Below are positions 3,548 through 59,599 of a stretch of DNA of 64,000 nucleotides, piece by piece. The stretch is from Sagittula marina (lineage in GTDB: Bacteria > Pseudomonadota > Alphaproteobacteria > Rhodobacterales > Rhodobacteraceae), in contig NZ_JACIEJ010000012.1 of the NCBI RefSeq assembly GCF_014196795.1, forward strand, positions 62,001 to 126,000. The letters are read 5' to 3'. The position numbers and the translations under genes were made by a program. How positions within the stretch are numbered: the stretch's first letter is position 1; each line of letters begins with the position of its first letter. Under the pieces are notes generated by a model that was given only the letters and a program-made list of their open reading frames with translations, was not told the DNA's origin and made no database searches.

Positions 3548-4095
3548 CTAGGCAGGCGTGCGGCGCTGGCCGTCGTCAGCCTTGCCAGACATTGACAGTT
3601 GCCAGCCCTTTGTCTGGAGTGAGGCATCGAACGTCATCCGCTCGAGAGAGATGCCGAAACCGTCTTGTTGAATCCCAGCAGCAACGCCACCGTGCGAAAG
3701 CCGAAGGAGGGTTCCTCCTCGGTTCACTGCCCGGCAGCACATGCGCGGCATGTGTGAGAGGGATATTCTTGATCGGTTCGGCCAAGCGAGAATAGACCTT
3801 CGGCGCGGATTTCACCGGCGTGGAATAGACCGTTCACCTCGGAACACCGAACCACCAGGCAAAGAGCTTGGCGATTAAAACAGCGCCGCCGTCCGCCAGG
3901 TGGCCCTGCAGCTTTTTTCGGGTCAGAAGCTCCGGCATGGCCTCGCCCTAGGCCTCCTGAAGGTCTCTGAGCTGCTTCTCGTATTGCTCACGGTTGTCTT
4001 GCCCTAGATGATCTCGTTGACAAGCGCGGTCTTACGCTTCGCCGACACCACCGTTTGGTGCCGTCGTCCATCGCCATACTCATCGCTACTTTCTC
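3548..4095 (-). mobile_element. IS3-family transposase remnant (orfA + orfB start), frameshifted
   Basis: Reading the minus strand in shifting frames recovers OrfA text (AKRKTALVNEII then GKTT after a stop, then an EQYEKQLRDLQEA-like stretch, a stop, GEAMPELLTRKKLQGHL). It also recovers the OrfB N-terminus (KLFAWWFGVPR, TVYSTPVKSAPKVYSRLAEPIK, FGFRTVALLLGFNK, KGWQ). Several stop codons and frameshifts interrupt the frames and the DDE core is absent. The group differs from the remnant at 2079-2440. Sequence near 4110-4130 (TGAATTGACCCACT on the minus strand) could be the outer end. Confidence 0.8.
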
Positions 4096-29914: not shown

Positions 29915-30799
29915 ATGACCGATTCTCTTCCCGTGCCTGTAACGGCCCCCCTGACGATGGCGCAGCGCGCACAGATCCTGAACCTCATTCGACGCGCCGC
30001 CAAGACGGAAATTTTGCCCAGGTTTCGCAAATTGTCGTCGCATCAAATCGATACGAAAACCGGCATCCATGATCTTGTCACGGAGGCTGACAAAGGCGCG
30101 GAGGCTATGATTGCCCGCGCGTTGCAAACCATGTTTCCCCACGCGCTGATCGTTGGGGAAGAGCATGCGTCACTGAATCCGGAGATCCTCGAAAAAATTG
30201 CCGAAGCCGAGATCTGTTTCACCATCGACCCGGTCGACGGCACCTGGAATTATGCAAAGGGCTTGCCGCTGTTTGGCGTGATGCTGTCCGTCCTTCGGTA
30301 CGGGCGACCGGTTTACGGTCTGCTCTATGACCCGATGGTTAACGATTTCATCACCGCCTCCGCCGGAGGTCCGACAGAGTTGGTCATGCCACGCAATCTG
30401 CGTCGCACGTTGGAAACCACCAAAGGCGGCCCAATCGAAGACCTCGTTGGCTTTGCGCCCGTTGCGCTGGTCCCGAAAGACAAGCAAGCACAGCTTGCCG
30501 CAACGTTCCCTAAATTTGCGCGCATCACCTCCCTTCGGTGCGCTTGCCACGAGGCACGAATGGTCGCCTCCGGCAATGCGGATTTCGTTCTATTCGCCAA
30601 GATGACCGCTTGGGATCATCCGGCGGGCGCTATCGCAATCCAGCAAGCTGGCGGTCATGTGGCCATGCTTGACGGCTCCGACTATTTGGTCGGAAAGGAA
30701 GGCTATTTGTTGTGCGCCTCCGACGCGGCGACTTGGGGGCGGTTGCGCGACCTCTTTGACTTCTTGCTCGACGCGCCGGCGAAGCCCGTCAACGCCTGA
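29915..30799 (+). CDS. Inositol-monophosphatase family phosphatase (probable histidinol-phosphatase HisN)
   Basis: 294 residues from ATG 29915, with GGAG 9 nt upstream; the frame upstream to 29729 is in the ybbP tail and the terminator and is not used. The Mg2+-binding IMPase motifs are complete: GEEHAS, DPVDGTWNYAKGLPLFG and TAWDHPAGAIAIQQAGG. The family hydrolyses phosphate monoesters of inositol, histidinol or PAP. The family is certain but the substrate is not. It precedes the LexA-box region and is probably a separate transcription unit from the repair genes. Confidence 0.87.
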   Translation: MTDSLPVPVTAPLTMAQRAQILNLIRRAAKTEILPRFRKLSSHQIDTKTGIHDLVTEADKGAEAMIARALQTMFPHALIVGEEHASLNPEILEKIAEAEICFTIDPVDGTWNYAKGLPLFGVMLSVLRYGRPVYGLLYDPMVNDFITASAGGPTELVMPRNLRRTLETTKGGPIEDLVGFAPVALVPKDKQAQLAATFPKFARITSLRCACHEARMVASGNADFVLFAKMTAWDHPAGAIAIQQAGGHVAMLDGSDYLVGKEGYLLCASDAATWGRLRDLFDFLLDAPAKPVNA

Positions 30800-30812: not shown

Positions 30813-30827
30813 GTTCCCCTCTTGTTC
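30813..30827. promoter_or_regulatory. LexA (SOS) box, distal copy
   Basis: GTTC-N7-GTTC exactly matches the alphaproteobacterial LexA consensus. It lies 30 bp before the rSAM start codon and 14 bp after the phosphatase stop, where a promoter for the repair operon must be. Confidence 0.75.
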
Positions 30828-30839
30828 GCACATCGATGT

Positions 30840-30854
30840 GAACGTAGAGTGAAC
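30840..30854. promoter_or_regulatory. LexA (SOS) box, proximal copy
   Basis: GAAC-N7-GAAC is the reverse complement of the GTTC-N7-GTTC consensus and is again an exact match. It ends 2 bp before the ATG of the rSAM gene, so bound LexA would also cover the ribosome-loading site. The two boxes are 12 bp apart. Confidence 0.75.
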
Positions 30855-30856
30855 AC

Positions 30857-32092
30857 ATGAGCACAAAATCGTTGGACCACAAATTGGCGATTCTGTCGGA
30901 CGCCGCCAAATATGACGCCTCTTGCGCATCAAGCGGGGGGCAAAAGCGGGATTCGCGGGATGGCAAGGGCCTCGGAAGCGTCACCGGGGCGGGCATCTGT
31001 CATGCCTATGCGCCGGACGGTCGCTGCATTTCGCTGCTCAAGATTCTGATGACAAATTTCTGCATTTACGACTGCGCCTATTGCATCAATCGTGTCAGCA
31101 GCAATGTGGAGCGTGCGCGGTTTTCGCCCGAGGAAGTGGTTCATCTCACTTTGGAGTTCTACCGCCGCAACTATATCGAAGGGCTGTTTCTATCCTCCGG
31201 GATTATCCGGTCGCCCGACGACACGATGATCGACATGGTGCGCATTGCGCGATCGCTGCGGCAGGAACATCATTTTCGCGGCTACATTCATCTTAAAACG
31301 ATTCCGGATGCAGATCCGAAACTGATCGAGGAGGCCGGTCTTTACGCTGACCGGCTGTCGATCAACGTCGAATTGCCCACGGATCGCGCGGTCAAAGATT
31401 ACGCACCGGAGAAGTCACCCGATCAGATCCGTCGAGCCATGGCCGACGTGCGCGTGCTGAAAGAGGCGCAAAAGGATAAATCGCACACTGGAAAACGGCC
31501 GCCGAAATTCGCGCCCGCAGGGCAGTCGACGCAAATGATCGTTGGCGCGGACGGCGCCAATGACGCGACTATTTTGCAAAGCAGTACAAGGCTTTACAGC
31601 TCTTACAAACTGAAACGCGTGTATTATTCTGCGTTCTCGCCGATCCCGGACGCGTCCAAGGTGCTGCCGTTGGTCAAGCCGCCCTTGATCCGCGAACATC
31701 GGCTGTATCAGGCGGATTGGTTGATGCGGTTTTACGGATTCGAGGTGGATGAGATCACCGCCAATCGCAACGATGGCAACCTTGATCTGGAGATTGACCC
31801 AAAGCTCGCCTGGGCCTTGGCAAACCGGACGATTTTCCCCGTTAACGTCAACACCGCGGTGCGTGAAGTGCTGCTGAGGGTCCCGGGTTTCGGCACCAAA
31901 ACTGTTAACCGCATTCTGACAACCCGCCGGCATCGCACTCTGCGGTATGACGATTTACGGCGCATGGGCGCGAACCTGAAAAATGCGAAACCCTTCATTC
32001 ATGCACTCGATTGGTCGCCGCGTGCCTTGACGGACACCGTTGATTTACGCGCGCGATTTGCGCCGCCCCCGGAACAGCTTTCGCTCTTCTGA
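30857..32092 (+). CDS. Putative DNA modification/repair radical SAM protein (UdgX-linked)
   Basis: 411 residues. The radical-SAM cluster motif is CxxxCxxC at Cys69, Cys73 and Cys76 (FCIYDCAYCINR). The C-terminal part contains a helix-hairpin-helix segment (REVLLRVPGFGTKTVNRILTTRR read across 330-353), a DNA-binding element. This combination is the family found next to UdgX-type uracil-DNA glycosylases (rSAM_link_UDG). It probably acts on a DNA lesion or modified base; no substrate is established. The ATG is 2 bp after a LexA box, and the stop overlaps the udgX start by one base (TGATG). Confidence 0.9.
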   Translation: MSTKSLDHKLAILSDAAKYDASCASSGGQKRDSRDGKGLGSVTGAGICHAYAPDGRCISLLKILMTNFCIYDCAYCINRVSSNVERARFSPEEVVHLTLEFYRRNYIEGLFLSSGIIRSPDDTMIDMVRIARSLRQEHHFRGYIHLKTIPDADPKLIEEAGLYADRLSINVELPTDRAVKDYAPEKSPDQIRRAMADVRVLKEAQKDKSHTGKRPPKFAPAGQSTQMIVGADGANDATILQSSTRLYSSYKLKRVYYSAFSPIPDASKVLPLVKPPLIREHRLYQADWLMRFYGFEVDEITANRNDGNLDLEIDPKLAWALANRTIFPVNVNTAVREVLLRVPGFGTKTVNRILTTRRHRTLRYDDLRRMGANLKNAKPFIHALDWSPRALTDTVDLRARFAPPPEQLSLF

Positions 32093-33510
32093 TGCACAGC
32101 GTTTCGCTTCCGCAGGTTGGGACGTTTGGCGCATGGCGGGATGCGGCGCGGACGTTGTTGTCGGCGGAAACGCCGCCTGAGGACATCCTGTGGTCCTTCG
32201 GTGATGACAGCGCGGATCTGTTTGGCGCAAAAATACCACTGCCGAAAGGCGACAAAGCGGTCACAGCGTCCAAACAATTCATTTCACTCGCAAATCTTGT
32301 CATTTGGAACCGTGATCCAGAACGGTTTGCGCGTCTCTACGCGGTGCTTCATGCGTTGCAAAGGGACAAGGGCCTGCTGGCAGACCGCGGCGATCCGCGT
32401 ATCGACCGGCTGCACAAAATGGCCAAAGAGGTCAGTCGGGACAAACACAAGATGACGGCCTTTGTACGCTTTCGGGAAGTGTCACAGCCGGGCGCGAACC
32501 GTCGTGCATTTGCCGCCTGGTTTGAGCCGTCGCACTTCATCATGGAACCGAGCGCGCCATTTTTTGCCAAGCGGTTTGGCGACATGGACTGGACGATTTT
32601 CACCCCGCATCTGACGGCGCATTACGATGGGGCTGTGACATTTTCGGACGGCGTGACGAAACCGCCCTTGCCCGAAGATGCGACCGAAGAGCTTTGGCGT
32701 ACTTATTTCCGGTCGATCTTCAATCCCGCGCGGGTGAAGGTGAAGGCAATGCAGGCAGAGATGCCAAAAAAGTACTGGAAAAATCTGCCTGAGGCCGATC
32801 TGATCCCCGAGATGATCGCAACGGCTCAGGCCCGCGCGGCCGAGATGGCCGCAAAGGCGCCGACACTGGCCCCGGCCCGCGCCGCGCCGATTCTTGATCG
32901 GCTCCATTCCCAACAAGCCGCCAAGCTGGAGACCCAGGATCAGTTCCTGATCGCGCTGCAGGGCTGTCGGCGCTGTCCTTTGTGGGAAAACGCGACTCAG
33001 CCAGTGCCAGGCGAGGGGCCGTTGGACGCCGCGCTGATGATCGTGGGGGAGCAACCGGGCGATCAAGAGGATCTGACAGGGCGTCCCTTTGCCGGCCCCG
33101 CCGGGGCGGTGTTTGATGCGGCCTTGGAACAGGTCGGAATTGATCGTGACGGGATCTATGTCACCAATGCTGTGAAGCATTTCAAATTCAAGCCGCGCGG
33201 CAAACGTCGCCTGCACCAGAACCCGAACCGCGATGAAATTCAGCACTGCAAATGGTGGCTCGACCTAGAAGTTGCGCGCGTTCAGCCGAAACTGATCGTC
33301 GCGATGGGCGGCACTGCGCTGGAAAGCCTCACCGGCACGCGAGAAGGTTTGCTGAGAAGACGCGGGCGGTTTGAGCAGACGCAGGATGGAATTCCGTTCA
33401 TGGTTACCGTGCATCCCAGCTACATTCTGCGCCTGCCCGACGCGGGGCTGAGGGCCGAGGAAGAGGCGCGTTATCGGGCCGACCTCGCACTGGCGGCGAG
33501 GTCGGTTTAA
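32092..33510 (+). CDS. udgX: DUF4130 domain fused to UdgX-type uracil-DNA glycosylase
   Basis: 472 residues in two parts. The N-terminal about 250 residues are the rSAM-linked DUF4130 domain (FEPSHFIMEPSAPFFAKRF and MPKKYWKNLPEADLIPEM seen). The C-terminal about 190 residues are a family-4/UdgX uracil-DNA glycosylase. UdgX features are the active-site loop GEQPGDQED (319-327) and the insertion loop KRRLH (371-375) whose His375 corresponds to the residue that becomes covalently attached to uracil-DNA sites in mycobacterial UdgX. The HPSYILRLPD motif closes the site. CRRCPLWE and later cysteines probably bind a 4Fe-4S cluster. It is coupled to the rSAM gene and converges with gcvP, whose stop is 5 bp away. 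Confidence 0.92.
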   Translation: MHSVSLPQVGTFGAWRDAARTLLSAETPPEDILWSFGDDSADLFGAKIPLPKGDKAVTASKQFISLANLVIWNRDPERFARLYAVLHALQRDKGLLADRGDPRIDRLHKMAKEVSRDKHKMTAFVRFREVSQPGANRRAFAAWFEPSHFIMEPSAPFFAKRFGDMDWTIFTPHLTAHYDGAVTFSDGVTKPPLPEDATEELWRTYFRSIFNPARVKVKAMQAEMPKKYWKNLPEADLIPEMIATAQARAAEMAAKAPTLAPARAAPILDRLHSQQAAKLETQDQFLIALQGCRRCPLWENATQPVPGEGPLDAALMIVGEQPGDQEDLTGRPFAGPAGAVFDAALEQVGIDRDGIYVTNAVKHFKFKPRGKRRLHQNPNRDEIQHCKWWLDLEVARVQPKLIVAMGGTALESLTGTREGLLRRRGRFEQTQDGIPFMVTVHPSYILRLPDAGLRAEEEARYRADLALAARSV

Positions 33511-59095: not shown

Positions 59096-59599
59096 CAGGA
59101 GATTGCATTCAATCATCGCAAGGCATGCGGATCATGATCCCCCGGCGCGCCAGAACATTGCTAAAGTCGGTTCATGTGAATCGGCTGACTTGAAGGGAGG
59201 GCTCGTGGCACCGTGTACCCCTAGCCGGCAACACACGCATGAATGTGGGAAAGGTGCCGTTCTCAATGAGGGGGCGGAGATCCTAAAATGAGGTAAGCAG
59301 GATCAGAAAAGAATCGATTGGATCGCTTTCCTGACGTCCGGTTCCTTGGGCCAAAAGCCGTATTGTTTGAGTTTATTGAGGAACCTTGTGAGGCTTTCCA
59401 GACGGCCCTTTTCTGCGCGATCATGGTGTCAGCTCCCGAAAACGACCGGCGTTCCGCAGCCGTTCAGCCGATCGTAAGGCAGCGAACTGATATGGTGACG
59501 GCGGCCGTATTTTGACAATAAGTCGATCACGCAGAGCAGCGGGTGTCGTGGACCACGTCGGGTCAGGTGATCCGGTCCGGGGCGACCGAACTGGTCTGC
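59096..59599 (+). other. Unassigned decayed stretch between IS3 and IS21 remnants
   Basis: About 500 bp in which only short unsupported frames (62-65 codons) occur. It probably contains degraded ends of the flanking elements; I could not identify inverted repeats or N-terminal IstA sequence. Confidence 0.45.

Follow-up and report, generated by a model that had tools for sequence, protein, structure and literature searches.

The question raised by this locus is whether an operon coding for a radical SAM protein and a DUF4130-UdgX fusion is placed under the control of the SOS repressor LexA, and whether by one operator or by two. The window, that is the whole 64,000-nucleotide stretch of DNA that was analysed (C12:62001-126000 of a 5.04-Mb genome; all coordinates below are those of the window), holds a radical SAM gene at 30857..32092 (+ strand) which scores 582.5 bits against TIGR03916 for a curated cut-off of 343.5. 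Its linked partner, the DUF4130-UdgX fusion gene at 32092..33510 (+), matches both TIGR03915 and TIGR03914 above their cut-offs, and the stop codon of the first gene and the start codon of the second share one base (TGATG). By the description given in the excerpted text of PMC8565304, the radical SAM gene is of the COG4277 type. An inositol-monophosphatase-like gene ends at 30799 and leaves a gap of 57 bp before the radical SAM ATG, within which both candidate operators are located. The radical SAM gene was found in 84 of 394 genomes of the same family (E 1e-50), the operon being therefore patchy in its distribution.

The distal candidate operator, GTTC-CCCTCTT-GTTC (GTTCCCCTCTTGTTC; 30813..30827, +), and the proximal one, GAAC-GTAGAGT-GAAC (GAACGTAGAGTGAAC; 30840..30854, +), which is the conserved one of the two, stand 12 bp apart in opposite orientations. 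As announced in the preliminary description of this DNA, both carry all eight fixed bases of the alphaproteobacterial LexA operator pattern GTTC-N7-GTTC, the motif named in the excerpted text of PMC8565304, this being a match of sequence. The proximal box, on the other hand, does not touch the start codon as had been written, since 2 bp separate it from the ATG at 30857.

Taken by itself, an exact match to this pattern is weak evidence, since 139 of them were counted in the genome as compared with 158 for the reversed control pattern and since the window contains three more besides the operon pair. The exact matches at 3711-3725 and 59451-59465 are not crossed by any open frame of 100 codons, and no plausible target gene was seen there. 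When 400,000 stretches of 57 bp were simulated as first-order Markov sequences of the window composition, 0.12% of them showed at least one match and none showed two, and about 0.10 close pairs of boxes are expected across the whole genome. Among the 84 genome sites of the form GAACR-N6-GAAC, ranked with a profile derived from the orthologues, the proximal box comes 12th and the distal box 26th, and neither appears by this ranking to be a strong consensus site. The boxes of recA and lexA rank only 47th and 54th of the same sites, which makes the profile rank a poor guide. The significance of the operon boxes therefore comes from their conservation before orthologous genes.

In the own-family set of 84 orthologous promoters (a fragmented gene in G147 and a contig-edge copy in G763 were dropped, and G532 and G533 were added from a genus search), an exact box was found within 60 bp of the start codon in 81, and the three others (L057, L093 and L136) have boxes with one mismatch. 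The same was observed in 20 of the 22 class promoters outside the own family, with an exact box at -97 in L066 and none in L065; these 22 are the ones outside the family among the 25 matches kept over the cut-off, from 41 genomes with any match. Start codons were chosen by script, with preference for the nearest in-frame ATG. Spacer controls with N3-N6 and N8-N12 gave 0-2 matches in these family and class promoters and the reversed pattern gave 0, as did the positional controls, which were the stretch from -260 to -200 and the initial 60 bases of the coding sequence. Eighteen more promoters of the class or the family were analysed, these being the new ones with loci among 55 own-class rows of a phylum-wide search, in which the remaining rows had either been counted before or came without loci. 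Thirteen of the eighteen have an exact box no more than 60 bp from the start, and five have it near -97. Among the best 80 named relatives listed, a set which overlaps the others, 77 have a box no further than 60 bp from the start, and the box-bearing records include Phaeobacter, Paracoccus, Rhizobium, Mesorhizobium, Brevundimonas, Acetobacter and Devosia. In G147 (L058/L059, contig C212), the radical SAM gene is split over two frames; the assembly is 73% complete and the split may be an assembly fault.

A single LexA-type protein, recognised by its DNA-binding domain, and a single RecA were found in the host genome, and the same operator stands before both lexA (L162) and recA (L161). It also precedes uvrA (L149), a dnaE2-type polymerase gene (L152) and the gene of an ImuB-like IMS-domain protein (L008), these three genes being cut at the ends of their loci, as well as genes for a PA0069-family radical SAM protein (L151) and a small OB-fold protein (L020). 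All of these come from the 20 genome sites, out of 84, that were viewed, those of recA and lexA together with 18 chosen for their sequence; several others among the 20 are located within genes or precede unrelated ones. The L151 box (L151:1501-2610; C7, about 273212) is located 12 bp before a possible start of the PA0069-family gene. The L020 gene (1501-1871; C2, about 87517) codes for an OB-fold protein of 118 aa that looks like the C-terminal part of error-prone polymerase; only 2 bp lie between the end of its box, GTTCTATTTATGTTC, and its ATG, which makes it a second gene of the genome with a predicted near-zero leader geometry. The box GAACATATAGGGAAC at L154:1501-1515 (C9:141222), third of 84 by rank, has no ORF of at least 80 aa starting within 170 bp.

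The conservation of the box before orthologues, together with its occurrence in front of recA, lexA and further genes of the damage response, leads us to place the rSAM/DUF4130-UdgX operon in the SOS regulon with both boxes as predicted LexA operators, a reading to which we give a probability of about 90% from sequence. The earlier proposal that this operon takes part in the SOS response is in this way strongly supported by the family and class counts, and by a different LexA-type box outside the class that is described below.

The position of the proximal box suggests how repression could operate. A predicted -35 element, TTGTTC (30822..30827, +), is formed by the last six bases of the distal box and starts 18 bp before the proximal box, and a predicted -10 element, TAGAGT (30845..30850, +), is contained in the proximal operator, with 17 bp between it and the -35. 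A strict sigma-70 scan reported no sigma-70 site at this promoter, so that a standard promoter by that definition was set aside and the assignment rests on conservation in the family. There, a TTG starts 17-19 bp before the box for 61 of 70 GAAC-oriented boxes (exactly 18 bp in 47), the hexamer at box positions 6-11 begins with TA in 59 of 70 promoters, and the last box starts between -16 and -20 in 72 of the 81 box-bearing promoters, most commonly at -17. The usual step from the -10 element to the transcription start is 7 nt. With this geometry, transcription is predicted to start at position 30857, the A of the ATG, or adjacent to it, and the mRNA may consequently be leaderless. Shine-Dalgarno-like 4-mers do not help to tell leaderless from leadered promoters, being rare in both own-family groups, with 2 of 72 in the predicted leaderless and 1 of 9 in the predicted leadered one.

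This geometry is not universal, since 13 of 20 boxes in the class outside the own family are found beyond -20 and since family f171 has its box near -97. In the latter (L066, L180, L181, L182, L185 and L186), the box is fixed as GTTCATGATATGTTC, away from the start codon; for the last five, the exact match was read from the printed sequence. The predicted leaderless model does not fit these six promoters, and their position near -97 rather than at the start codon makes a leadered form of the promoter probable in family f171.

The role of the distal box is less straightforward. At the identical 12-bp spacing, it is exact in the host genome, in two congeners (L091 and L092) and in a neighbouring genus (L094), and a third congener (L093) has one mismatch in the distal box and one in the proximal box, so that this closest clade counts four exact boxes out of five and one with a single mismatch. 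The distal operator is therefore not conserved before orthologues beyond this clade. No distal box with up to one mismatch was found at that place in the other 79 own-family promoters (five of them, without a GAAC-oriented reference box, were unscored), and none with up to two mismatches in the 22 class, the 80 best-listed named and the 18 further promoters, of which two, nine and seven respectively were unscored for the same reason. The double LexA control proposed initially is thus compatible with two exact boxes in this genome but would be, by its restriction to the closest clade, a local addition.

It is possible, although less likely, that LexA operates at the proximal box alone and that the distal one is a by-product of the -35 region (CTTGTTC) combined with a chance GTTC eleven bases upstream, without any added control. 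The absence of the distal box from the rest of the family would be expected in that case, and its right half-site, being in part the TTG of the -35, is constrained anyway. Near versions of it are also seen: in L095 and L036 the sequence is CTTGCTC, which differs from CTTGTTC by one substitution and lies one position further upstream, and L053 has two mismatches at the distal-box place with a left half-site GTTC. The left half-site, on the contrary, has no promoter role and yet, with the 12-bp spacing unchanged, reads GTTC in four of the five clade members and GCTC in the other. The eight fixed columns of the distal box are identical in 5, 4, 5, 5, 5, 5, 5 and 5 of the five members, whereas the 30 columns upstream reach a maximum of 4 of 5 and most of the 12-bp spacer varies; these are, however, five related sequences, two of them alike. 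Because most of this spacer varies within the clade, the idea of one long palindrome built around CACATCGATGTG, between the two boxes, was also dropped. A second exact LexA box, differently arranged, was observed in L117 (boxes at -43 and -19) and in the named record L235 (boxes at -50 and -17), apparently independent of the clade of the window.

Another alternative is that the repeats serve a different repressor, or are mere promoter sequence around a conserved -10, which we consider very improbable. A -10-like ATAT..T inside the box could indeed persist without LexA, but GAAC on both sides at a fixed N7 is no promoter element, and the same operator stands before recA, lexA, uvrA and the dnaE2-type gene of the host genome. 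The search of the phylum provides additional evidence against it. The gene was found in 84 of 398 genomes, 29 of them outside the class, and in 19 of these 29 promoters CTGT-N8-ACAG replaces the box within 70 bp of the start, other spacers giving 0-1; five further outside-class promoters (L197, L200, L201, L206 and L208) have CTGT-N8-CCAG. CTGT-N8-ACAG, which we take to be the LexA box of the beta and gamma groups, was met in 0 of 106 distinct alphaproteobacterial promoters. LexA was looked for in 72 chosen genomes in addition to the host genome. Two genomes, G837 (L164, outside the class) and G345 (L065, within the class), have neither box nor LexA, and of 60 other genomes holding the gene, most of them box-bearing, 59 gave a LexA match; in G193, the assembly of which is 85% complete, the box is present with no LexA match. 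The association of the box with LexA rests on the two LexA-less genomes, which together with the class-specific switch of motif make another regulator unlikely.

As for chance matches, their probability is negligible: exact matches are genome-wide as common as reversed controls and three more lie in the window, but orthologue conservation together with the spacer controls rules chance out for the proximal box, and no simulated stretch held two.

With LexA as the predicted repressor, the following sequence of events can be proposed. In the undamaged cell, LexA bound to the proximal box would cover the predicted -10 so that RNA polymerase could not open the promoter and, in this clade, the -35 would be covered as well by another LexA dimer, bound to the distal box. 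Upon DNA damage, activated RecA would promote the self-cleavage of LexA and the promoter would fire, giving a damage-induced base-repair module in which UdgX would remove uracil and stay covalently attached to the abasic site, while the radical SAM enzyme and DUF4130 would act on some base lesion.

The UdgX domain is compatible with such a function. According to the excerpted text of PMC10359453, UdgX excises uracil and bonds to the abasic site, which it is proposed to protect, and is characterized by motif A (GEQPG), an R-loop KRRIH with its His and motif B, HPS(S/A)(L/V)(L/V)R; it is used in genome-wide uracil methods and its physiological role is there described as largely unknown. In an alignment of the window protein with UdgX structures, GEQPG, KRRLH and HPS are in register: motif A is intact, the R-loop keeps the His with L in place of I, and motif B, HPSYILR, departs from the stated motif. 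A crosslinking activity of the window UdgX is thus likely as judged from these motifs. The alignment of GEQPG, the KRR-x-H R-loop and HPS is shared with Mycobacterium smegmatis UdgX as presented in that text, from which the window protein differs by KRRLH rather than KRRIH, by HPSYILR, by its fusion to DUF4130 and by its radical SAM partner.

The same source text suggests that RecA-dependent pathways or proteases may resolve UdgX-DNA complexes. Since resolution by RecA-dependent pathways is proposed, it would make sense for UdgX to be off until RecA is induced, and a predicted co-induction with RecA fits with the resolution of such complexes. We tentatively extend this to the whole promoter: the mirror array GTTC-N7-GTTC-N12-GAAC-N7-GAAC could allow two LexA dimers to hold the -35 and the -10 elements of a leaderless promoter at once, the distal operator being derived from the -35 hexamer itself, and might so shut off a crosslinking suicide glycosylase unless RecA is available for crosslink repair. 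This is a speculative extension, which we regard as possible at best.

SOS regulation of such a glycosylase system is known in kind. In its excerpted text, PMC8565304 places a COG1573-COG4277 operon in the predicted SOS network of Bacteroidetes and mentions an SOS-regulated uracil-glycosylase repair system for Verrucomicrobia and Alphaproteobacteria, citing Erill 2016 and Paes da Rocha 2008. The present operon resembles that one as a two-gene unit of a uracil-DNA-glycosylase-family protein and a radical SAM protein placed under LexA. It differs from the Bacteroidetes case, which was predicted from another LexA motif. The present operon shares its motif with the alphaproteobacterial operators of the same text, the motif being found here also before recA, lexA, uvrA and the dnaE2-type gene; it differs by having, in this clade, two predicted operators in opposite orientation and 12 bp apart.

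Tandem or double LexA operators occur at E. coli lexA and at colicin genes, with two LexA dimers per promoter. Two dimers on one promoter are likewise predicted here, although the sequence is another one, the half-sites are mirror-arranged and both predicted promoter elements are overlapped.

What is new is the promoter geometry, the second operator and the breadth of the conservation. No mention of a double operator, of a box with an embedded -10 or of a leaderless start was found in the excerpted text of PMC8565304 or in the open-licence literature searched, where no paper treating UdgX and LexA together was found either and a single one came up for each of COG4277 and DUF4130; the main text of the D. 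shibae LexA paper (PMC6473078) contains neither 'glycosylase' nor 'radical SAM'. A LexA box before nearly all the orthologues examined in the class and another LexA-type box before most of those examined outside suggest that the module works in the DNA-damage response. The operator with an embedded -10 and a predicted leaderless start represents a clean, testable type of promoter, and the clade with the second operator offers a natural comparison between one and two LexA sites.

A minor observation concerns four of the 29 promoters from outside the class that do not follow this scheme, L192, L204 and L215 of family f196 and L211 (G1084), which have no recognised box at the radical SAM gene in genomes where LexA is present. 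An f196 lexA gene (L299) carries TTAGTAGTAATACTACTAA; this TTAG-type box was rejected for the three f196 radical SAM promoters, the best match in their 200 bp upstream having 10-11 mismatches out of 19. At the expected place of the LexA box, these three promoters have in common the inverted repeat TCTCATCCAATGAGAC, and the radical SAM promoter of family f196 is perhaps served by another regulator.
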